A DNA stretch of 64,000 nt from assembly GCF_014764305.1 (NCBI RefSeq), contig NZ_CP061703.1, positions 2,895,501 to 2,959,500 on the forward strand, given 5' to 3'. This stretch comes from Mesoflavibacter profundi. Its GTDB lineage: Bacteria > Bacteroidota > Bacteroidia > Flavobacteriales > Flavobacteriaceae. Made by a program: the position numbers and the translations under genes. Shown here piece after piece: positions 29,842-40,457 of the stretch; within the stretch, counting starts at the first letter, position 1, and each line of letters begins with the position of its first letter. The notes below the pieces were generated by a model that was given only the letters and a program-made list of their open reading frames with translations, had not been told where the DNA came from and ran no database searches.

Positions 29842-31317
29842 ATGGAAGAAGATTATATTAAGTTAATTTTTGGCTTAAAGCTAAAGCAGATAAGAACTGA
29901 CAGGAATTTATCCCTATTTGGATTATCTAAATTATCTGGGTTATCAAAATCGTATTTAAACGAAATTGAAAAAGGAAAAAAATATCCTAAACCTGATAAA
30001 ATTGCAATATTATCTGAAAAATTAGATGTGCCTTACGATCAATTTGTATCCTTAAAATTGGATAAAAATTTGGCACCAATTGGTGATATCTTAAAGTCGA
30101 AGATTTTAAAGGAAATTCCGTTAGATTTATTTGGAATAAAAGAAAGTAACTTAATAGAAATTATTGCCAATGCACCAGCAAAAGTTAATGCTTTTATAAG
30201 TACAATTATAGAAATAGCGCAGCATTACAGCTTTAGTAAAGAAAGTTTTTATTTGGCGTCTGTAAGATCTTTTCAAGAAGCAAACAACAATTATTTTGAA
30301 GATTTAGAGCAAAGCGTAATTAAGTTTGCAGAAGCGTATCAATTGGATTTAAAAGCTAATATTTCGTCTTTAGAATTAGAAGAAATTTTAGTTGAAGAAT
30401 ATGGCTATACCATTAATAATAAAGAATTAGAAAATTATAAAGAATTAGATAATTTAAGATCTATTTTTATTCCTAAAACAAAAACGTTGTTAGTGGCTAA
30501 TCATATAGATGAAGCGCAACGTACCTTTATTTATGCTAAAGAAATTGCATATAATTATTTGAATTATAAAGAGCGATTATATACGTTTTCCTGGATTAAA
30601 TTCGAGAATTTTGATCAAGTATTAAATAACTTTTACGCATCTTATTTTGCTGGTTCGTTAATTTTACCACAAGAATTACTTACCAATCAAGTAGAAAAAC
30701 TATTTAAGAAAAAAACCTTTGACGAAAAGCAATTTGTGCAAATTGCACAATCGTTTAACGCTTCGCCAGAATCTTTTTATCAGCGTTTAACCAATATTTT
30801 ACCTAAAGATTTTAATATTCAGAATTTATTTTTCTTACGTTTTATACATAAAAAAAATAGTCCAAACTTTTACTTAACCAAAGAGCTGCATTTATCACAT
30901 CAACATTCGCCTCATGCTAACGAAACTAACGAACATTATTGCAGACGTTGGATGTCTTTAAAGGTGTTAAAAGACATTGTAGATACAAACGACAAACATG
31001 TGTTTAATTTACAAATCTCTAATTATCCAGATAGTAACCAATCGTATTTAGTATTGTCTTCTGCAACCAAAGATCCGTTTAAAACCGATCAATATAGAAG
31101 CGTTAGTATAGGATTATTAATAAACCAACAATTAAAAAGAAAGCTTAACTTTTTAGAAGACAAAAAAATTGAAACCTTTAATGTTGGTGTTACTTGCGAG
31201 CGTTGTGCGATTAAAGATTGTAAAGAGCGAATGGTACCATCTAAACTATTAGATCGTCAACAACGAAATCTAAAAATAGAGACCGTTGTTAACGATATTT
31301 TTAAACAGTTTAGTTAG
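29842..31317 (+). CDS. XRE-family regulator of the short-chain fatty acid / glyoxylate type (RamB-like)
   Basis: This 491-residue protein has an N-terminal XRE helix-turn-helix (LKLKQIRTDRNLSLFGLSKLSGLSKSYLNEIEKGKKYP). The middle part has the layout of the IrrE/ImmA-like region (QRTFIYAKEIAYNYL at the place of the HExxH helix, but without the metal ligands). The C-terminal domain carries a Cys motif, CERCAIKDCKER. This architecture is that of RamB/ScfR/MccR-type regulators, which sense acyl-CoA or acetate status and control isocitrate lyase and malate synthase. Its divergent position to aceB supports the same role. Its stop overlaps the end of the convergent gene by 4 nt. Confidence 0.85.
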   Translation: MEEDYIKLIFGLKLKQIRTDRNLSLFGLSKLSGLSKSYLNEIEKGKKYPKPDKIAILSEKLDVPYDQFVSLKLDKNLAPIGDILKSKILKEIPLDLFGIKESNLIEIIANAPAKVNAFISTIIEIAQHYSFSKESFYLASVRSFQEANNNYFEDLEQSVIKFAEAYQLDLKANISSLELEEILVEEYGYTINNKELENYKELDNLRSIFIPKTKTLLVANHIDEAQRTFIYAKEIAYNYLNYKERLYTFSWIKFENFDQVLNNFYASYFAGSLILPQELLTNQVEKLFKKKTFDEKQFVQIAQSFNASPESFYQRLTNILPKDFNIQNLFFLRFIHKKNSPNFYLTKELHLSHQHSPHANETNEHYCRRWMSLKVLKDIVDTNDKHVFNLQISNYPDSNQSYLVLSSATKDPFKTDQYRSVSIGLLINQQLKRKLNFLEDKKIETFNVGVTCERCAIKDCKERMVPSKLLDRQQRNLKIETVVNDIFKQFS

Positions 31318-33074
31318 TTTTCTAAAGCTTTTAAAGAGTCAAGTTCGCGTTGTAAACGTTCTACTTCACTTTGTTGTCTAGCTTTTTTAATAGAATCTAT
31401 CTGTGCTTTAAGTTCTTCTACAGTCAAGTCTTTGTTTGAAGGATTAGTTAATGTAGAATCTATGGAAACAACTTTATCCTCTATATCACTTAAAGCGTCT
31501 AACATTGTATTATCCTCTTGAAAATAATTGCCAATACCTTCGCTAGCACGCCAAGCTTCGTTTAACTGATTATAAACTGTTTTATCCCATTGACTTGGAT
31601 GTTTTGCATCAATCCAAACTACATCACGATATTCGCTATCAATTAAAGCTAAATCTGGTGTTGCAGAACCATCAAACTGTGCATTATCTTTTTTAATTGA
31701 AGAAATAGTACCTAAAAAGAACATGCGTTTTCTACCAGCTATTTCTTTTATATACGGTCTAAATTCTACAGGTTTATTTACAGACCAATCGTATTCTTTT
31801 CTTGATTCTATTACTTTTAAAGGCATTGCAGAAACACCTGCATAACCTTGTTTTTTACTAGCATGATCGTAGTAAAATAGTTTTTCTGTTCCATCTGCAG
31901 GCACAAAAACACTGTACGTTAAACTGGTACGCTCATCGCCTACTGGTTCTAAACCAAACCAATGGTATAATCCACTATACGCGTCTTTATTACTTTCAGA
32001 AAAATCAAAATCGGTTACAAATGGTTGTTGGTTTTGATCGTCTGGTAAAACAGGAATTTTTACAGCTGTTTCCATATTCCATGGTAATGGATCACTAAAT
32101 CCACCAAGAAATTTTAAAGATTCTGCTTGTAAACGCGATACTCTTTCGGCAAGCGTATTTTGACGTGTTAAAAATGGATAGTTTTTCATTTGATCTGGAG
32201 CTACAAATGTTCCTTTTCCTATAAATACACGCTCTAAATAATCGTTAAAATCATGTTCTCCGTTTTCAATAATCATAACGCCACCAAAAGTTGGATACGG
32301 GAAGAAAAATCCTTTCCATTTAATTAAACTAACTACTTCTACCCAATGTCCGCTATCATCTTTCATGTAATACGTATCACTTGGTTCGTAATTAAATAAC
32401 ATCCAAGGATTAAAACGTTGTACTACAGCATTGTATGTGTTTCGGCTAAATTTTAAAGATTCTCCTATGGAAAAGGTGACAGGAATTCGGTTTTCATTTG
32501 AAAAACGAGGAAAAGGCGATGTGCTTGGTACTGCAAACACTTCTTCTGTGTTATCACTTATACCTTGCCAAACGTATTTTTCGGTTGGTTGAATTGCCAT
32601 AGTCCATTTATTTTCTCCATCAACTCTAACTAAATGTGGTAACGAAACGTCTTTGGTTTCGCCAACACTTTCATTAGCCATAGAAAAAATATTACGTAAT
32701 GGTTGTATACGTTCGTTTTGTGTTAGCGGTAACTCATTGATTTCAACTCTATTTAAATTATTAAAAACGTTATACGTTTTCATATAATCGTAAAGTTGTA
32801 AGTGCCAACCTAACACGTAAAGCAGACCGAAAAAGGCTACTAAAATTCCTAAAATACCAAGTCGTGTTCCTGTTGAAGCAGATTTTCGGAATTTTCTAAG
32901 TCCGAAAAATAAAACAACACCACTAAGTAATATGATGAAAATATACTTTCTAAAAAACAGTAAAGCCGGTTGATAATCGTCTCTTAAAAAAAACAGAATT
33001 CCAACTATTATTAGTGCTACAATAGTGACTATTGCTTTTTGTTTTCCGCCTTTATTCCAATAATTTTTTATCAT
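31314..33074 (-). CDS. Unrecognised membrane protein with a domain of about 490 residues
   Basis: This 586-residue protein has three TM helices in the first 100 residues (about 14-30, 41-58 and 71-92). A large soluble part follows, rich in aromatic and Pro residues (for example NPWMLFNYEPSDTYYMKDD and KGFFFPYPTFGGVMIIENG), and a short coiled coil of Lys/Glu/Leu ends it (about 545-586). Topology would place the large part outside the cytoplasm if the N-terminus is inside. I do not recognise the family. It is the last gene of the eight-gene block and starts 38 nt after the previous one. Its stop overlaps the convergent regulator gene. Confidence 0.6.
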   Translation of the reverse strand: MIKNYWNKGGKQKAIVTIVALIIVGILFFLRDDYQPALLFFRKYIFIILLSGVVLFFGLRKFRKSASTGTRLGILGILVAFFGLLYVLGWHLQLYDYMKTYNVFNNLNRVEINELPLTQNERIQPLRNIFSMANESVGETKDVSLPHLVRVDGENKWTMAIQPTEKYVWQGISDNTEEVFAVPSTSPFPRFSNENRIPVTFSIGESLKFSRNTYNAVVQRFNPWMLFNYEPSDTYYMKDDSGHWVEVVSLIKWKGFFFPYPTFGGVMIIENGEHDFNDYLERVFIGKGTFVAPDQMKNYPFLTRQNTLAERVSRLQAESLKFLGGFSDPLPWNMETAVKIPVLPDDQNQQPFVTDFDFSESNKDAYSGLYHWFGLEPVGDERTSLTYSVFVPADGTEKLFYYDHASKKQGYAGVSAMPLKVIESRKEYDWSVNKPVEFRPYIKEIAGRKRMFFLGTISSIKKDNAQFDGSATPDLALIDSEYRDVVWIDAKHPSQWDKTVYNQLNEAWRASEGIGNYFQEDNTMLDALSDIEDKVVSIDSTLTNPSNKDLTVEELKAQIDSIKKARQQSEVERLQRELDSLKALEN

Positions 33075-33112
33075 GTTTAAATAATTCTTTTGTAAAAAAA
33101 AGTCAGTTTTAA

Positions 33113-33637
33113 TTACATTAACCCTTTATCTTTTAAGCGTTCGCGTGCGCTTTTTTCTTCTTTTTTAGGTGTTTCTTTTATTTCTTCTTTTGCTTCTTCA
33201 ACAACTTTTGTGTCTTTGGTTTTTAAATCGTCTATAAACTTTTTTCCTTTGTTTATACTTTCGTTTAAAACATCTTCAAAAGATTCGCTTTTTTCACCAA
33301 TTACGTCACTAGATTTAAGTATAAAATTAGCTAAATACGTACCAATTAATGTACCTACAATTGCAGACACAAACCATTGTACTAAAGATGCTGAAATTGG
33401 TAAAACAAATTGAACAACGACTATTGAAACCAAAAATATTAAGGTAATGTAGACCAATCTTAACAGAAAGTTTTGCTGATAAATGAAGCCTTTTTTGCTA
33501 TCTGATTTCATCTGTAAATCTTTAGAATACATTAGTTTATTAAAAAATCGATAGACTTTATTGCTTTTGGATTCTCTCCAATACAATAAAATTCCGAATA
33601 AAATTGAAGCTACGAATATGATGAGTTCTAGTGTCAT
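33113..33637 (-). CDS. Small membrane protein with charged cytoplasmic tail
   Basis: This 174-residue protein has TM helices near residues 2-20, 58-82 and 85-107. A highly charged tail follows (DDLKTKDTKVVEEAKEEIKE, KKEEKSARERLKDKGLM) that looks disordered or helical. No family is recognised. It sits between the 411-residue and 586-residue genes of the block on the same strand, with gaps of 74 and 38 nt. A membrane anchor or scaffold role is only an inference. Confidence 0.55.
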   Translation of the reverse strand: MTLELIIFVASILFGILLYWRESKSNKVYRFFNKLMYSKDLQMKSDSKKGFIYQQNFLLRLVYITLIFLVSIVVVQFVLPISASLVQWFVSAIVGTLIGTYLANFILKSSDVIGEKSESFEDVLNESINKGKKFIDDLKTKDTKVVEEAKEEIKETPKKEEKSARERLKDKGLM

Positions 33638-33639
33638 GT

Positions 33640-33682
33640 TGTTAAGGTTGAAGGTTTAGATTCCGCATCAAGTGCGGAATAA
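33640..33682. repeat. Inverted repeat ATTCCGCA-TCAAG-TGCGGAAT with AAGGTT repeats
   Basis: Perfect 8-bp arms at 33660-33667 and 33673-33680 surround a 5-nt loop. They are preceded by TTAAGGTTGAAGGTTTAG, two units of a 7-8-bp direct repeat. The arm sequence resembles REP-like intergenic hairpins found in many genomes. No T run follows on the minus strand, so it is not a normal terminator. Confidence 0.5.
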
Positions 33683-33711
33683 CAAGTTTATACTAAATTA
33701 GTCTATAATTT

Positions 33712-34947
33712 TTAAATATTGTTACTAATTGTCTCAATCACCCAATCTTTAAATGATTCATCCCAAGTGGCATATTGTTTATAAAATTCGTCTTTATCAT
33801 ACCAAAACAAGAATAAAACGTCTTTTGGCGCTATGTTAATTAATAACTTCCAAATTAAGTCTTGTTGCGTTACAGGTAAAGACGAATGTGGCGTATGCAA
33901 AGCATTAAAAACACCTATATCTACCAAATCGTGTATTTTATATTGATTGCTAATTTCAAGTTTTTCAAGGTATAATTCTACACCCATAATTTTTTTTCTA
34001 GTATCAATATCAAGTCTGTTTAAATAGCTTTTAAATAACACATTATCATTAAGAATTTGCTTAATTGGATGTTGCGTATCTTTTAGTGACATAGCAAATT
34101 CCATTTTTTTAATACGTTGGTATCGATCTGTGTTTAGTGCAGCTTCTAAATCGTATTCTACAATAATATGATCTCGTAATTTTTCTATTAATTCTGGTTG
34201 ATTAATATGAAAAATCATGACATCATGTATGGTATCTTTTATAGCCTCTTTGTACCATTTTAAATTTTCAAAAACTACTATTGGTGATATAAAATCTCTA
34301 AGCACATAAACGCCACCAAAAGCTTTGGTGTAAAACGAATCTGTTTCATATTGAAGACTGTGCAAACTTAAATCTCGGTTACGTAAATCGCCATGTTTTT
34401 TAGCCGATTCTAATAATTGCTGATGAATACTTTCATCTATAAAATTATTGTCTTTTTTAAAGATTTCAATAAGTTGTTCTTGTTCTTTTTGAGCTTTATT
34501 TAAATTATCTATTAAATGAAAATTGATACTTACTTTATCATATTTTAAAACATCTAATGGCTCATAAAACGCATCTATATTTTGATCAAAATCTAGGCAA
34601 ATGGCACTATCGCGAGTAATATCATTTATTTTATCACCATGTATTCTAAAGACTTGCTGCATCATTTCTTTATCAAACGTGTGAAACGGAGAATACACAG
34701 GTTTACCTTTTTGTAAAGGCGAAATAATGATGGCATGCGGATTAGCTTCTCCATTATTTAAATACATAGTCGAGCCTTTTTCTTCGGCTATTTCTGGACT
34801 ATAACCAACGCCATCAATAAAAAATGAAGTTAATTTTGTTGGCGTAAAACCAAGCTTAACTAGGCATTTATTATAACGCTCCACTAACTTTCCGCTAACG
34901 GGAATTAATTCACTTCTATATAAATTGGCTTGTTTTAGTTTTTGCAT
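33712..34947 (-). CDS. Unrecognised soluble protein of the AAA+ block
   Basis: This 411-residue protein has no signal peptide or TM helix. It has a mixed N-terminal part (KLGFTPTKLTSFFIDGVGYSP, ANPHAIIISPLQKGKPVYSP) and a helical C-terminal half (LIEKLRDHIIVEYDLEAALN, TRKKIMGVELYLEKLEI). No catalytic motif is obvious. It probably belongs to a Bacteroidota-specific uncharacterised family. It lies 118 nt downstream of the block's third membrane-protein gene; that gap holds short AAAGTT-type direct repeats. Confidence 0.55.
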   Translation of the reverse strand: MQKLKQANLYRSELIPVSGKLVERYNKCLVKLGFTPTKLTSFFIDGVGYSPEIAEEKGSTMYLNNGEANPHAIIISPLQKGKPVYSPFHTFDKEMMQQVFRIHGDKINDITRDSAICLDFDQNIDAFYEPLDVLKYDKVSINFHLIDNLNKAQKEQEQLIEIFKKDNNFIDESIHQQLLESAKKHGDLRNRDLSLHSLQYETDSFYTKAFGGVYVLRDFISPIVVFENLKWYKEAIKDTIHDVMIFHINQPELIEKLRDHIIVEYDLEAALNTDRYQRIKKMEFAMSLKDTQHPIKQILNDNVLFKSYLNRLDIDTRKKIMGVELYLEKLEISNQYKIHDLVDIGVFNALHTPHSSLPVTQQDLIWKLLINIAPKDVLFLFWYDKDEFYKQYATWDESFKDWVIETISNNI

Positions 34948-34961
34948 TTCATTATTAGTTG

Positions 34962-34990
34962 AAAGTTTAAAGTTGTAAAGTTATAAGTTT
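34962..34990. repeat. Degenerate AAAGTT direct repeats
   Basis: AAAGTT occurs at 34962, 34969 and 34977, with a shortened AAGTT at 34985. The period is therefore 7-8 bp. It lies in the gap between two genes of the block and resembles the heptamer arrays at 38749 and 41424 in unit length. Confidence 0.45.
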
Positions 34991-35065
34991 GAATCGCCTT
35001 GTTAAACAAATAATAATTTCACTTTAAAACTCTTTTACTTTTTATACTATTTGCTTGTTTTCAAT

Positions 35066-35710
35066 TTATTCCTTTTTGTCTTTAGAAGGTAATTTCTTTA
35101 TTACTTTAATATTGCCTTCAATAGGAGAAATTTGAACATCTTTATTGTCTTGCGTAGCATAAAAAACATATAAACTGTTTTTTCCTAAGATTTTTACGTC
35201 TTTAGCTTCTCCATCTTCAAACACGATTTGATGTGTGTATTTATAATCTTGAGTTTCTAAACGTTCTTTACTTTTATATCCGCCACCTAATCCAAATCCT
35301 AAAAACATACAAATTAGCATCATTAATATAAAAGGAATTACTGCATACTTTTTATTTAAGCTTTTAAGCACCTTATCTAATTTTTCTTTCTTTTTTCCAG
35401 ATTGATACTTTTCTTTTCTTGAAAGTTTTACATAATACCATTGTAAAAGTTTAAAATATCCAATCATTAATGGTATTAATACTGCTAAAATAACAGGCAT
35501 AAGCCAATGCGAACTTATCACAGCCAACGGACTTAATAACACATCTAAAACCGATGTATATTCAAAAATATTTACACCTAACAATCCATAAAATATAGCT
35601 TGATTAGCTACACCTAAAACTAATAAAAACAAATAGCCAATAGACATATAATCTTGGATACTGTAATTAGTTACACTTTGCTCTGTTGTTTCAATCTTAG
35701 CTGTTTCCAT
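35066..35710 (-). CDS. Three-helix membrane protein of the AAA+ block
   Basis: This 214-residue protein has TM helices at about 22-45, 55-85 and 121-145, the last ending in MFLGFGLGGGYKS. It has a basic loop of about 30 residues (KLSRKEKYQSGKKKEKLDKVLK). The C-terminal soluble part (about 70 residues) has short beta strands (YTHQIVFEDGEAKDVKILG, LYVFYATQDNKDVQISPIEG). It begins 6 nt after the AAA+ gene, so the two are almost certainly co-translated. The family is unrecognised. Confidence 0.58.
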   Translation of the reverse strand: METAKIETTEQSVTNYSIQDYMSIGYLFLLVLGVANQAIFYGLLGVNIFEYTSVLDVLLSPLAVISSHWLMPVILAVLIPLMIGYFKLLQWYYVKLSRKEKYQSGKKKEKLDKVLKSLNKKYAVIPFILMMLICMFLGFGLGGGYKSKERLETQDYKYTHQIVFEDGEAKDVKILGKNSLYVFYATQDNKDVQISPIEGNIKVIKKLPSKDKKE

Positions 35711-35716
35711 GATTTA

Positions 35717-37675
35717 TTACGATTTATCAAACTGTTTTCTTGCTTCCATTTCAATATTTAACTGATTAACTCTTCCTTCTACTTGACGTTTAAAATCGGT
35801 ATCTGCAATAGTAGCAACGTTATCTAAATAACGTACGACTTCTTGTCGTCTAATTTCTGAAAAATCTAAACCTTTCATATTGGCTTTCATTAATTCTTGA
35901 AGCATCGCAAACTTGGTATCGTAATCTTTTTTGAAATAAATCTCTGGATTTTCAAACCAGCTTTCTTCTAAATCAAAATCTGTTAAACGTAATGAGATTG
36001 CGCTTTGTATATTTCTAACATCTCTAGAAGAGAAAAACGGAAATATCTTCTGAATTTCTTTATACAACGTTGCATAAAACAAATGATCTGTTGTTTTATG
36101 TTGCTTTTCGGCAATATCATAAGCTTCTAAAACACGTTGTTCTGTTGGTTTGTTAGATACGTTTAAAATTTCACCCATATTTTTAGCCAAACCTTGATCT
36201 TGTAAATAAGTATAATTTGCAGGATTTTGCATGTTTACAAAGTCGGGCATTGTCTTTTCAAACTTACGCCACCATAAATGATCTTGATCTAAAAAGTCGT
36301 GTTCTGTACGTGCTCCATCAATTTTAAAACGTCCTTGCACACGAGAGATTACGGCTTTATCCAACATTTCTGGTAAGTTGGTAAACAAACCTATAGAACT
36401 GTTCCCATAATTAACCGCATAAGCACCTTCTGTATAACGTAAAAAGACACCAATAACTTCTTTTACACCAGCCGAAACACCTTGTGCTGTACGCTCTTGC
36501 AAGTTATTTTCGGCATCATCAATTGGTGCAAAAATTAATTTTGTTGGATCTTGTAAAGGTTTCATCCAGTCTACCATTTTCTCAGCAGATCCACCTTGAA
36601 ACGTACTTATTAACGTATCTGGCATTGGATGAAACAAAAACGGAATATCTAAATTATCACAATGTTCTTTTAAACGTGTTGCTATTGCGGCAATAAGCAT
36701 ACTTTTTCCTGTTCCTGGAATACCGTAACCCATAAAGACTGGCATGAATCCGCCTAATTCTTGAAACGGATTTTTCTGTGCTTGAAAATCGTAGCTTAAC
36801 ATTCTTTCTGTTAAACGACGTGCAAAGTGTTTAGCATCTCTGTTACCTACAATTTGCTCGAATTTAATTTTATTAAACTCGACACTTTTTGCAGTGCCTT
36901 GAAACGTGTTTTCCCAACCAGAAATAGCAAAATCACTGTTTTCTAACTTGTATGTTCTATCTACAATCGTTTCGGTGTATTCTAAACTGCTTCGTCTTAA
37001 ATTAATTTCGCCAATTACAGCTTCAAAAAATACCGCTGTAAAATCGGCTACATCTTTATCAGATTTGATTATATCTGGATGCGCTAAATATTTATCATAG
37101 TAAAATAATGTACACGAAATTCCTTTTAATGGCGATAGTAAAGACACTTCAGGGATACCTGCAAACTTCTGTTTCATCACACTTAAATCGTCTGACGCAT
37201 ATGGTTTTATTTGATGCAGAATATAATACGATGTTGCAAATAGCATAAACGCTGTTGCGGTTTGCATTTTGCTTTCGTATTCGCGTTTTCCGCTACTATC
37301 TAATGCCGATTTACGCTCGTTTAAACTTGACAAACCAGATGCATCGTAATAGCTATCTTTTATCCACGTTCCTAAAGTAATACCTTCTTGAACAGCATAT
37401 AACGTCTGGTTAAGATGAATTGGAATTGCAATACTATCTGGCAACAAACGCTTTTTAAGCGCTAAAATGGTTTTTGAAACTGATGTTACAGAAACTGAAG
37501 AACCATTATTGGCACGAGACAGATACAATAAAATAGACTCGTCTTTAGCATCTTTATCTCTGTTTTTTGCACGCGCGCCTTGCTCCCAACTTACACTTTT
37601 TAAGTAAGATGAAGCTTCATCGCGCAAGACATCTAGTTCTGATTTTTTTATAGGAAATGTGGAATTGTGTTCCAT
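35717..37675 (-). CDS. AAA+ ATPase with large N-terminal extension
   Basis: This 652-residue protein has a helical extension of about 300 residues and then an AAA+ core. Walker A is MGYGIPGTGKSMLIAA (Lys324), Walker B is KLIFAPIDDAEN (Asp386/Asp387), sensor-1 is LFTNLPEM (Asn433), and VISRVQGRF holds arginine-finger-like residues (Arg445/449). The motif FQGGSAEKMVDW before Walker B resembles a pore-loop region. About 190 more helical residues follow. It lacks protease, helicase or MoxR-VWA signatures. It sits 2 nt after the 354-residue gene and 6 nt before a membrane protein gene, which suggests an ATP-driven machine linked to the inner membrane. Confidence 0.75.
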   Translation of the reverse strand: MEHNSTFPIKKSELDVLRDEASSYLKSVSWEQGARAKNRDKDAKDESILLYLSRANNGSSVSVTSVSKTILALKKRLLPDSIAIPIHLNQTLYAVQEGITLGTWIKDSYYDASGLSSLNERKSALDSSGKREYESKMQTATAFMLFATSYYILHQIKPYASDDLSVMKQKFAGIPEVSLLSPLKGISCTLFYYDKYLAHPDIIKSDKDVADFTAVFFEAVIGEINLRRSSLEYTETIVDRTYKLENSDFAISGWENTFQGTAKSVEFNKIKFEQIVGNRDAKHFARRLTERMLSYDFQAQKNPFQELGGFMPVFMGYGIPGTGKSMLIAAIATRLKEHCDNLDIPFLFHPMPDTLISTFQGGSAEKMVDWMKPLQDPTKLIFAPIDDAENNLQERTAQGVSAGVKEVIGVFLRYTEGAYAVNYGNSSIGLFTNLPEMLDKAVISRVQGRFKIDGARTEHDFLDQDHLWWRKFEKTMPDFVNMQNPANYTYLQDQGLAKNMGEILNVSNKPTEQRVLEAYDIAEKQHKTTDHLFYATLYKEIQKIFPFFSSRDVRNIQSAISLRLTDFDLEESWFENPEIYFKKDYDTKFAMLQELMKANMKGLDFSEIRRQEVVRYLDNVATIADTDFKRQVEGRVNQLNIEMEARKQFDKS

Positions 37676-37677
37676 TT

Positions 37678-38742
37678 TTAATTAATTTTTTCAATTTTTA
37701 AATCTGAAATTTGAAATGGTGGTTTAGCCAATTTATTCATTATTTCAGAGTTTTTGTTGTATAATAGCTGTATGATTCTATGAGGCGCAAAGACGTATTT
37801 TTGTTTGATAACTGGACTCCAATTTTGTAATACTTGCTTGTTAAAAAATCCGCCTTCTTGAAATGTACTTCCAGACATAACCTCATGTACTTTAAAAGAC
37901 AACGCGTAAGCTTCTAAAGGCACTTCTTTTTTTGTTATTGCTTCTAAAATGGTATGTGTTAATTCGTTTTCGTCTTTTGCAAATACATTATGAAATGCAC
38001 CAACATCTAACCGTCTTATATGTTTTGGCAACACACGTTTTAAGCGTCTATCTATACCATAAGCCATAGTATCTAAATCCATTTGGCGATCTGCAACTTT
38101 GCTTAAAACTTCGTAGATATCTTCTTTGTCTTTTAAAGGATCTTTACCATCGTAATCAAAATACATGTAGCAAATAAATGGTCTGTTTAAGGACACATCA
38201 TAAAAACTCCAACTGGTCATATATTCTGCTTGACTACCTTCTGGTGCTTTTATTATTTTACCTTGAACAAATCGGTTGAAAATATATTTTTGTTCTACAG
38301 AAGTATAATAAACTATGGACGCTGCTTGAAATAATTTATCACGACTAACCGGTTCTTTTACCCTTAATAATTGGTCTAAAAACTCTTCCTGCAATTGTGA
38401 TACATCTTTTAATTTATTAATGTAATTATGACGTAATGATAAATCATTATATAGGTATCTAAACTCTAAATAATTAGGAAACCCAGAATCCGTTACATCA
38501 ACTTTCATGTTATCTTCCTCATCGTACATGTATTTAATACGCATAGCCTCGATAGAATACAACAACAGATCTGCATATTGCTTAAAAAACACAATTTCTT
38601 GCTGTGTACACAAGTTGTTTTGCTGTACAGCAACAATTAATTCTTTAAGAGCAAAATCTACTTTTTTATGATAAAACACGTATTGTGCTTTACTATCTAA
38701 AATAGCCGAATCTAATGGTGTTGTAATATGGTTTATTGACAT
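37678..38742 (-). CDS. Unrecognised soluble partner gene of the AAA+ ATPase
   Basis: This 354-residue protein has no TM helix. The N-terminal half is helical (YHKKVDFALKELIVAVQQNN, FLDQLLRVKEPVSRDKLFQA). The C-terminal half has the strands NRPFICYMYFDYDGKDPL and KEVPLEAYALSFKVHEVMSG. No catalytic motif is evident. The AAA+ gene starts 2 nt after its stop, which is typical of proteins acting together. The gap upstream of it carries a degenerate heptamer repeat. Confidence 0.58.
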   Translation of the reverse strand: MSINHITTPLDSAILDSKAQYVFYHKKVDFALKELIVAVQQNNLCTQQEIVFFKQYADLLLYSIEAMRIKYMYDEEDNMKVDVTDSGFPNYLEFRYLYNDLSLRHNYINKLKDVSQLQEEFLDQLLRVKEPVSRDKLFQAASIVYYTSVEQKYIFNRFVQGKIIKAPEGSQAEYMTSWSFYDVSLNRPFICYMYFDYDGKDPLKDKEDIYEVLSKVADRQMDLDTMAYGIDRRLKRVLPKHIRRLDVGAFHNVFAKDENELTHTILEAITKKEVPLEAYALSFKVHEVMSGSTFQEGGFFNKQVLQNWSPVIKQKYVFAPHRIIQLLYNKNSEIMNKLAKPPFQISDLKIEKIN

Positions 38743-38748
38743 GTTTTT

Positions 38749-38775
38749 GCTGTTAGCTTTATGCTTTAGCTTTTA
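38749..38775. repeat. Degenerate heptamer array GCTGTTA-like
   Basis: The units GCTGTTA, GCTTTAT, GCTTTA and GCTTTTA follow each other between the start of the 354-residue gene and the stop of the small membrane gene. They share unit and spacing with the perfect GCTGTTA array at 41424-41474. Confidence 0.6.
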
Positions 38776-38949
38776 TTTTTTTAAATATTGAATAAGTGCC
38801 TTTAATATTAATCCGCCAAAGACTAGTACATTAATACTACCAATGATTAATCCAATGTCTGAACTTGTTGTTTTTATTATGAAAATACCAACAATGACTA
38901 TGATTATTGATAATCCGTTGTCTTTGATAAATTGAATGAAGTTATCCAT
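38773..38949 (-). CDS. Small two-helix membrane peptide, 58 residues
   Basis: The ATG is the complement of 38947-38949 and the TAA the complement of 38773-38775. The product is MDNFIQFIKDNGLSIIIVIVG, a short polar turn (KTTSSD), a second hydrophobic helix (IGLIIGSINVLVFGGLILKAL) and a basic end (QYLKK). It lies on the strand of the block, between the coiled-coil gene and the 354-residue gene. It is too short for routine gene calls. Its position suggests it is part of the system. Confidence 0.6.
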   Translation of the reverse strand: MDNFIQFIKDNGLSIIIVIVGIFIIKTTSSDIGLIIGSINVLVFGGLILKALIQYLKK

Positions 38950-39005
38950 TTTACACTGTAAATATTGACTAACTTTTGCGTTTTACTTTTACTTGGCTAA
39001 GTGAT

Positions 39006-39100
39006 GCGTTAAGGATTGAGGTATTGTTGGAGCACATCTTTGATTGCGACTACCGAAAGCCTGACCTACTTTTGCCATTAAAAGCAAAAGTAGGTAACGC
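39006..39100. repeat. REP-like intergenic element with inverted ends
   Basis: The element begins GCGTTA (39006-39011) and ends TAACGC (39095-39100), inverted copies of each other. It contains a perfect 11-bp hairpin, CCTACTTTTGC (39065-39075) with GCAAAAGTAGG (39084-39094). The architecture (GATGCGTTAAGGATT start, GCCTGACC, hairpin, GTAACGCCC end) matches, from memory, a class of dispersed flavobacterial intergenic repeats. Only one copy is in this window. Confidence 0.55.
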
Positions 39101-39110
39101 CCTTTTTATT

Positions 39111-40457
39111 TTAACCTAATAAATCGTCTTCGGTGTCTTGTTTTGGAGTACCATTACCAACACCACTAGAATTATCTTCAGTAGGTTTGTTAGCATCTGC
39201 TTTGTAATAGTCTTCAAAAATTTCTTTCATATCGATACCGTAACGCTCGGCAAAATTCTTTTGAATATCTACATCTTTTGCGCGGATTTCTTGTAACGCT
39301 TCTGCGTAACTACTATAAACACCTTGCATTACTTTTTCGTGAACTGGTATGTTGTCCATCATCTCTTGACGTGCTCTAGCACTTGCTGTGTGCATTGCTG
39401 CTAAGGTCTCACCAATATGCTCGTCTGTTTTTACACCTAAATGCTCTAAAATAGACGCAAACTCTTGGTCTGTACGTGCTTTAAGTGCTACTACGTAACC
39501 ATCGTAATACTTTAAACGCTCGTCTGTATCTGACTTTAATTTTGCACGATGTGTCTGTAAATTACTACGTAAAGACGTTAAAACTTTAATCGTTAAATTA
39601 TGCTTGTGTACAAAGCTATCTTTTGAAGCAGCTAAAGTTGTGTAAGCGTTTTTAAGACCTTCTAATTCTTCTACTTTTTGCTCAAGTTTTGTGACTTTAG
39701 CTAACGCTTCTGAGTATTCTGTAGATTGTTTATCTGCTACTTCTTCTAAAGCTTGACGCGCTTGTTTTAATAATGCGTATTGCTCTTCTAATTTAGCTTC
39801 AGTTTCGGCTTTTTTCTCTAACGCTTTAGTATGATTTTTAGACGCTTCTACTATGGCATCTTGCAGCTTATCTTCTACTTCTTTGATTTCAACCTCACGG
39901 TTTTTTAATCGTGTAATTGCAGCTTGAGATTTATAAGACAACTCACTTAACAATGTCTGTACATCTGCACTTTCTATACGCTCTTGGAACATTGCTTTTG
40001 CTTTGTTATCTGCAGCTGCACGTGTTTTTTCGGCTTCTTTTAAAGTATCTTCGGCTTTTTTGATTTTGCTTTTTCTTCCCCAAAGGTTATTCCACCATGT
40101 ATCTGGTTTGTTTTGTGCGTCTTCAAGTTCGATTTTAGCACGTTCTAATGCTTTTTGTGCATCGTCGATTACTTTTTGCTCATCTTCATTTAAAGACGAA
40201 AATCGCTCGAAAAGTATACCAACTTCATCTTGATAATCGGTTAAATCTTTAATTGCATCTAAAAGTGTTGTACGGTCTTTTTCTGCCATATGTACAACAT
40301 CATCTAAGGTTGCGTTAAGAATTTTTTGACGACTTTCAGGATCGTCTTCTTGCGCTAGTTTAGACTTCATTGTGTCAATTGCTTTTCCCCAATTAACGTC
40401 TACTTTTTCGTTTTTTTCTTGAGAGTTGGTTTCTAATAAGTCAAAATCATCAGACAT
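39111..40457 (-). CDS. Long coiled-coil protein opening the AAA+ block
   Basis: This 448-residue protein is acidic and strongly helical. Continuous heptads run through about residues 85-150 and 180-290 (for example ALERAKIELEDAQN, AEDTLKEAEKTRAAADNKAK, KVTKLEQKVEELEGLKN), with a Trp-rich break (PDTWWNNLWGRK). A further helical domain follows, then a disordered acidic/Ser-Gly tail ending EDDLLG. It has no TM helix or ATPase motif. Relatives are sometimes labelled microtubule-binding protein, which is only a coiled-coil match. A scaffold or filament role is possible, and a distant TelA-like relation could be tested. It is 161 nt upstream of the small membrane peptide gene, with a REP-like element between. 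Confidence 0.6.
   Translation of the reverse strand: MSDDFDLLETNSQEKNEKVDVNWGKAIDTMKSKLAQEDDPESRQKILNATLDDVVHMAEKDRTTLLDAIKDLTDYQDEVGILFERFSSLNEDEQKVIDDAQKALERAKIELEDAQNKPDTWWNNLWGRKSKIKKAEDTLKEAEKTRAAADNKAKAMFQERIESADVQTLLSELSYKSQAAITRLKNREVEIKEVEDKLQDAIVEASKNHTKALEKKAETEAKLEEQYALLKQARQALEEVADKQSTEYSEALAKVTKLEQKVEELEGLKNAYTTLAASKDSFVHKHNLTIKVLTSLRSNLQTHRAKLKSDTDERLKYYDGYVVALKARTDQEFASILEHLGVKTDEHIGETLAAMHTASARARQEMMDNIPVHEKVMQGVYSSYAEALQEIRAKDVDIQKNFAERYGIDMKEIFEDYYKADANKPTEDNSSGVGNGTPKQDTEDDLLG

Follow-up and report, generated by a model that had tools for sequence, protein, structure and literature searches.

Among the described systems that most resemble the locus analysed here, Vps4 with ESCRT-III and bacterial PspA/Vipp1 share with it a classical-type AAA ATPase adjacent to a coiled-coil hairpin protein whose C-terminal motif is conserved, together with membrane partners. 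TelA (KlaB/YaaN) and XpaC pair a cytoplasmic coiled-coil protein with a membrane protein. CbbX, SpoVK and EccA have an aromatic-x-Gly pore loop, MoxR- or CbbX-type AAA proteins serve to activate a partner instead of recycling a polymer, and IetAS combines the IetA ATPase with the IetS serine protease. The locus in question lies at positions 31314 to 40457 of a 64,000-nucleotide stretch of Mesoflavibacter profundi DNA (NCBI RefSeq assembly GCF_014764305.1, contig NZ_CP061703.1, positions 2,895,501 to 2,959,500), which is referred to below as the window and to which all feature coordinates relate. It contains a conserved unit of six genes, p8-p6-p5-p3-p2-p1, that was found in marine bacteria and in which p5 encodes an AAA ATPase and p8 a coiled-coil protein.

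Six-gene core in Bacteroidota

An earlier note on this DNA had described an eight-gene block around an AAA ATPase, and its eight minus-strand open reading frames (ORFs) were recovered at the same positions. Numbering starts at the low coordinate (p1 to p8; 586, 174, 411, 214, 652, 354, 58 and 448 aa, respectively), and transcription runs from p8 to p1. The close spacing reported around p5 was likewise reproduced (2 nt between p6 and p5, and 6 nt between p5 and p4), the other intergenic gaps measuring 30-161 nt, and hydropathy analysis agreed with the membrane helices assigned (three N-terminal helices in p1, three each in p2 and p4, and two in p7). The extent of the block did not hold: the conserved unit comprises six genes, and of the 108 surveyed loci only 11 have p4 and 5 have p7. 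Apart from these two, independent occurrence was limited to a single Rhizobium p8-DUF2333 pair, so that the expectation that the genes travel together stands for the core.

The core genes, all on the minus strand, are p8 (39111..40457), p6 (37678..38742), p5 (35717..37675), p3 (33712..34947), p2 (33113..33637) and p1 (31314..33074). Searches with tblastn for each protein identified them in that order in 13/13 close relatives, the p1 copies in L023 and L031 being truncated where the fetched stretch or the contig stops, whereas p4 and p7 were detected in only one of the 13. Full-length p5 at 76-100% identity was present in 14 of 60 genomes searched as relatives (that of the window included), with weak partial AAA matches only in six more. 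Of the 103 Bacteroidota loci in the wider survey, 92 carry the six genes in this order on one strand. The survey covered the window, its 13 close relatives, nine further genomes and 80 named contigs, which were the best 80 among 480 confirmed relatives; their identity ranged from 79 to 90%, and almost all bear Flavobacteriaceae names. L087 and L131, whose p5 proteins are identical and whose contigs are equally long, represent one contig entered twice, and the 108 rows of the p5 alignment also hold one contig twice. Of the 11 exceptions, L034 and L136 do carry all six genes, which the ORF caller had missed (tblastn for L034), eight are truncated where the contig or the fetched stretch stops, and the remaining one is L117, in which p6 was not detected.

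Profiles of p5, p8 and p1 each matched the identical nine of 395 class-level genomes, including that of the window, the remaining 386 giving no match. No sequence of the six divergent genomes entered the p5 and p1 profiles, and the p8 profile included five of these. The core is thus distributed patchily across genomes (9/395; 14/60), and DUF6638, the family of p3, is present in four of 296 phylum genomes. Pairwise distance matrices of the six proteins correlated with r values of 0.86-0.97 over 91 loci (L031 was left out), which mainly reflects shared descent, since a control gene unlinked to the locus was not included. The shared order, strand and co-occurrence leave little doubt that the six genes encode one machine.

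ATPase, coiled-coil protein and their partners

The 652-aa p5 protein matches PF00004 (E 1.8e-8; 35.4 bits versus a cut-off of 21.2) and has the features of a classical AAA ATPase, so that its identification as such in the earlier note was correct, as were the positions given for Walker A (Lys324; 36704..36706), Walker B (Asp386-Asp387; 36515..36520) and sensor-1 (Asn433). Across 108/108 aligned rows, the Walker A motif Gly-x-Pro-Gly-Thr-Gly-Lys, Asp386-Asp387, Asn433, Gln360, Gly361 and the two arginines of the second region of homology, Arg445 and Arg449, were invariant. Residue 359 is Phe in 99 rows and Tyr in nine; residues 359-361 (Phe-Gln-Gly; 36593..36601) are presumably pore loop 1, by comparison with the loops of Vps4 and FtsH. 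A profile search of PDB sequences ranked Cdc48-type, proteasomal, Pch2, Pex6, Vps4 and katanin ATPases, while one divergent p5 weakly resembled the SpoVK, CbbX and EccA models (E 1.8e-7 to 1.2e-4), with scores well short of their cut-offs. No membrane helix was found in p5 by hydropathy, and hmmscan at E up to 1 returned P-loop ATPase domains only, with no MIT domain. The aromatic-x-Gly pore loop is indicative of protein threading, and p5 is very probably a threading ATPase. In all 108 rows, Asp takes the place of the usual catalytic Glu as the second Walker B acid, which suggests that hydrolysis by p5 may be slow. NSF-D2 also has Asp in place of the catalytic Glu, with slow hydrolysis.

The first core gene encodes p8, for which the AlphaFold2 model had a mean predicted local distance difference test score (pLDDT) of 64; residues 56-323 mostly exceeded 70 and both ends fell below 50. 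The model is usable from residue 56 to about residue 310 and consists of two long antiparallel helices, forming a hairpin at residues 166-326 (helices 166-239 and 246-326; 39480..39962) whose block means were 73-95 to residue 310, 63 at 311-320 and 48 at 321-330. Both termini carry short conserved motifs. FDLL at residues 5-8 (40434..40445) was observed in 96/98 Bacteroidota copies, the exceptions, L102 and L116, beginning at the locus edge, and DDLL at residues 444-447 (39117..39128) represents a [DEN][DEN][LM][LM] motif present within the final six residues of all 98 copies, preceded by a tail with a pLDDT of about 30. Homologues in Proteobacteria are about 360 aa long, and profile-profile comparison linked the two p8 groups with a probability of 98.9%.

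Comparison of p8 with known hairpin proteins identified no Pfam PspA_IM30 (PF04012) match at E up to 1, and this family was found nowhere in genome G000. Foldseek returned nothing at E 0.001 or better. In a second structure comparison, the hairpin aligned with PspA (4whe; Z 11.7 over 120 residues at 2.5 Å), Vipp1 (Z 10.5-10.6) and CHMP1B (Z 10.3); unrelated hairpins, namely HP0958 (Z 13.2) and the dynein stalk (Z 12.5), scored higher, and SMC was also listed. The proposal that p8 replaces PspA was dropped as uninformative, as PspA occurs in 0/12 core-bearing genomes against a class rate of 12/99. Sub-cut-off matches of p8 to LmuB and JetC (PADLOC, E ~1e-3) were set aside.

Between p8 and p5 stands p6, a soluble 354-aa core protein with no Pfam, NCBIfam, PHROG or PADLOC match at the limits used, which has homologues in Proteobacteria and at L145. 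The 411-aa p3 protein, for which no recognisable family had been suggested, belongs to DUF6638 (PF20343; E 2.4e-37, 129.3 bits versus a cut-off of 27). In Bacteroidota, the core further includes p2, a three-helix protein of 174 aa with a charged tail (13/13 close relatives and 6/6 divergent class genomes), and p1 (13/13 close relatives), which combines three N-terminal helices with a domain of about 490 residues predicted to be extracytoplasmic. Basic residues precede helix 1 of p1 and lie between helices 2 and 3, and by the positive-inside rule the large domain should therefore be periplasmic; the charged tail of p2 should be cytoplasmic. Residues 410-490 of p1 gave weak fold matches to YpeB (Z 5.0), CD1622 (Z 4.9) and YpmB (Z 4.7), whose domains we take to be PepSY-like; given the poor model, these are treated as a lead only.

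All four of p1, p2, p6 and p8 fell below every curated Pfam and NCBIfam cut-off and had no convincing PHROG or PADLOC match, their divergent relatives likewise had no family match, and no PDB sequence matched the p1 and p6 profiles at E up to 1. For p2, a match to a Chlamydia inclusion protein model (E 1.8e-4; 20.8 bits versus 90 needed) was set aside. Profile comparison among the parts, including p1 versus DUF2333, gave no pair above 2.4%; sequences with stops or below 70% of the median length did not enter these profiles. Contig-edge ORFs and ORFs more than 20% off in length were excluded from alignments A5-A7.

Exchangeable membrane partners and optional cargo

Outside Bacteroidota, p5 matched 10 plasmid records (four Vibrio, four Sinorhizobium, one Shinella and one Rhizobium), and the four genes p8-p6-p5-p3 occur in that order in all five replicons examined (from Vibrio, Sinorhizobium, Shinella and R. 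leguminosarum). A gene of the DUF2333 family (PF10095) follows p3 directly in Shinella and Sinorhizobium; in Sinorhizobium, an endonuclease-domain gene and an IS4 element precede p3. The four Vibrio megaplasmids (882-939 kb) that harbour a p5 gene carry one DUF2333 gene elsewhere on the replicon (L160:7334-8332), and it is distant from the core in the V. vulnificus record. Overall, DUF2333 accompanies the core in four of the five replicons searched outside Bacteroidota, as well as at L145, and is absent from 7/7 core-bearing Bacteroidota genomes tested; genome G000 lacks the family. We infer that one cytoplasmic core works with either p1/p2 or DUF2333 at the membrane, the two being non-homologous by profile. 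The identification of p1 itself as a DUF2333 protein was rejected, as neither the window p1 nor two divergent p1 proteins had a Pfam match and hhalign gave 0.9% against two DUF2333 sequences.

On plasmid pSK03 of R. leguminosarum BIHB 1148 (L166:4777-7131), a p8 homologue (profile E 1.1e-22; tblastn E 7.5e-50) stands beside DUF2333 where Sinorhizobium has the full core, and tblastn found no p6, p5 or p3 in 13 kb. The locus looks as if the ATPase module had been lost, and the pair suggests that p8 acts with a membrane partner.

The core was also found at L145, on a 359-kb IMG/VR contig, where DUF2333 (E 7.7e-91), p8, p6, p5 and DUF6638 (E 5.9e-100) follow one another in order. The viral label of this contig is that of IMG/VR alone; it encodes elongation factor G and initiation factor 3 (PHROG families), and no terminase PF03237 was found, nor any structural gene among 25 of the 31 PHROG families listed (54 ORFs, 100 kb; 54 of the 91 ORFs of five stretches were scanned). 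Phage records contained no match to the window p5 and one partial match to the L145 p5 (26% identity over 24%). Two standalone ORFs, one FliG-middle (130 aa) and the other FliM-like (172 aa), are located about 2.3 kb before the L145 DUF2333 gene (L145:239-1146), separated from it by four ORFs, one of which is SmpB-like by eye. Pseudomonas phage Y11 encodes a DUF2333 relative (OQ572412.1:49859-50695; 44% to that of L145), and no p5 match to this phage emerged in the phage searches.

Every one of the five intergenic gaps of the core takes insertions, p5|p3 the most and p2|p1 the fewest. The p5|p3 slot, occupied in the window by p4 (35066..35710, minus strand; a 214-aa three-helix protein), holds a NUDIX-type gene in 60/108 loci, forming one cluster at E<1e-4 of which one member was scanned (PF00293, E 2.6e-11). 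Other occupants of the slots, identified by eye, include four-helix, GIY-YIG-like and RDD-like genes as well as larger ones. The p8|p6 slot contains p7 (38773..38949, minus strand), a two-helix peptide of 58 aa. From their low frequency, p4 and p7 are lineage cargo, and these two as well as the NUDIX gene are optional and not part of the core. Below the cut-off, p4 matched a membrane protein of PHROG (E 1.4e-3), which was set aside. Both p4 and the NUDIX-type gene are present in Olleya (L043). At L131 (2478-14800), p5 and p3 are separated by a 9-kb insertion with opposite-strand genes and a 1490-aa protein whose start is CheB methylesterase-like by eye; the insertion at L118 resembles it.

An ABC-F gene adjoins the locus in 10/13 close relatives. 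In the window, a plus-strand gene for an XRE-type regulator (29842-31317; by eye) is convergent with p1 and extends over the p1 stop codon, and the gene past it is malate synthase-like by eye. No promoter matching a Bacteroidota consensus was found upstream of p8.

Candidate mechanism and comparison with described systems

The suggestion of the earlier note that the locus encodes an ATP-driven machine, in which a cytoplasmic ATPase is combined with soluble partners, a coiled-coil protein and membrane components, is supported for six genes, not for eight. The favoured reading, drawn by analogy with Vps4/ESCRT-III and held with a confidence that is evenly divided, is that a threading ATPase remodels or disassembles a p8 assembly at the inner membrane. 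Under this reading, p8 would form a filament or patch on the membrane, and p5 would act as a slow hexamer that grips p8, most likely via the C-terminal motif of p8, p6 and p3 serving as adaptors between the two. Threading of p8 would then remodel or take apart the assembly, as Vps4 does with ESCRT-III, while p1 and p2 (or DUF2333) would anchor the assembly at the membrane and sense the periplasmic side or act on it. Such a machine would probably serve envelope maintenance, repair or stress response, and some role at the envelope is rather probable.

Several observations weigh against this reading. That p8 is the substrate of p5, a proposal for which the chances appear balanced, is suggested only by its position and its motif, and its likeness to ESCRT-III and PspA proteins goes no further than that of a generic hairpin. 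The p8 proteins of Proteobacteria are shorter, lack both terminal motifs and end in an AANY-like sequence, and the Rhizobium pair shows p8 persisting without an ATPase nearby. The Walker B substitution could mean that hydrolysis is very slow or absent. The p1 model is poor (pLDDT 53). The partnership with DUF2333 is not uniform either: plasmid pRlX5 of R. leguminosarum TP16 bears the core without DUF2333, and five plasmid records have DUF2333 and no p5 match. Finally, at L117, which stands at a contig end, tblastn did not detect p6 in the 1.95 kb preceding p5.

Alternatively, p5, p6 and p3 may constitute an assembly chaperone that matures a p1/p2 (or DUF2333) complex, with p8 as a mere scaffold, in the manner of MoxR- or CbbX-type AAA proteins. 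Such a role would suit the variation of membrane partners between phyla around a constant cytoplasmic four-gene core, as well as the weak SpoVK/CbbX/EccA likeness of one divergent p5 (E 1.8e-7 to 1.2e-4). However, one Rhizobium locus retains p8 and DUF2333 but not the ATPase, the motifs conserved at its termini hint that p8 is itself acted upon, and no VWA domain was found in the eight proteins (Pfam, E up to 1); this explanation is considered unlikely, though it is the strongest of the competitors. An anti-phage defence operon, in which the variable cargo would represent effectors, is improbable. Its patchy presence (9/395 genomes), the variable insertion slots and the weak matches of p5 to IetA (PADLOC, E 2.5e-5) and of p8 to LmuB/JetC would be in keeping with defence, but PADLOC gave no convincing match, no nuclease or protease domain was found in the eight proteins, the ABC-F neighbour is kept in 10/13 close relatives and the core proteins diverge in step. 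Moreover, the NUDIX, four-helix and GIY-YIG-like cargo (the last two by eye) resembles ordinary small mobile genes. TelA/Ter-like resistance to toxic anions, colicins or envelope antibiotics, based on a TelA-type coiled coil with a membrane partner, is the least credible, because in spite of a layout that is alike by eye (a Proteobacterial coiled-coil protein of about 360 aa with a membrane partner; TelA (yaaN) following xpaC in a Bacillus plasmid), p8 has no PF05816 match, hhalign gave probabilities of 0.2-1.2% with 2 and then 7 TelA sequences versus the 98.9% between p8 groups, and genome G000 has no TelA match.

The six-gene core matters in several respects. Of the six core proteins, p5 alone belongs to a superfamily of known function, the function of the p3 family not being known, and the core provides DUF6638 and DUF2333 with a shared context and testable partners. 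DUF6638 was not named in any paper of the literature searched; DUF2333 was named only in PMC5256989, as a gene in a Pseudomonas hcp locus. Literature on TelA/XpaC/AAA and on a Flavobacteriaceae AAA operon yielded nothing relevant. If p8 proves to be the substrate of p5, the core would represent a bacterial AAA-driven remodelling machine that connects cytoplasm with periplasm, for which the p8 C-terminal motif offers a simple handle for tests.

Compared with described systems, the six-gene machine, and p1, p2, p6 and p8 individually, fit no family tested, and we infer function here from sequence. The families that the earlier note had discarded (MoxR-VWA, FtsH, type VI ClpV and TelA/TerB) indeed do not fit in Pfam, NCBIfam, PHROG and PADLOC scans. 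MoxR-VWA systems differ by their VWA domain, of which the eight proteins have none at E up to 1, and FtsH by a C-terminal zinc protease domain and membrane helices; p5 has no membrane helix by hydropathy, and FtsH models match its ATPase region only (E 0.018 and 0.048). The IetA match is weak and partial, covering p5 residues 317-494, and no counterpart of the IetS protease domain occurs in the eight proteins. CbbX, SpoVK and EccA are similar in their pore loop and in the weak model matches of one divergent p5, but no rubisco, spore or type VII gene is found among the family matches of the eight proteins. TelA-XpaC has no detectable homology, and no AAA gene is located beside TelA in the short stretches inspected (by eye, annotation).

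Vps4/ESCRT-III and PspA/Vipp1 share the general layout, but differ in detail. Unlike Vps4, p5 has no MIT domain, and no ESCRT chain appeared in the PDB profile list; p8 has no PspA_IM30 match, and its hairpin scores no higher against PspA than against unrelated hairpins. The bacterial PspA/Snf7-AAA operons described in PMC11237479 differ from the six-gene core in gene sets and architectures, and the system described here has DUF6638, p6, p2 and p1 in addition. A further proposal, tentative and as a whole rather doubtful, is that of a p8 polymer tagged at both ends by acidic-dileucine motifs, which would be pulled by a slow Asp-Asp AAA ring via dedicated adaptors and linked through the inner membrane to outer parts that can be exchanged (p1/p2 or DUF2333). 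Present on cellular replicons and perhaps in a giant virus, it would constitute a third kind of bacterial membrane machine built from a filament and an AAA recycler, having evolved independently alongside PspA/Vipp1 and the archaeal and eukaryotic ESCRT systems.

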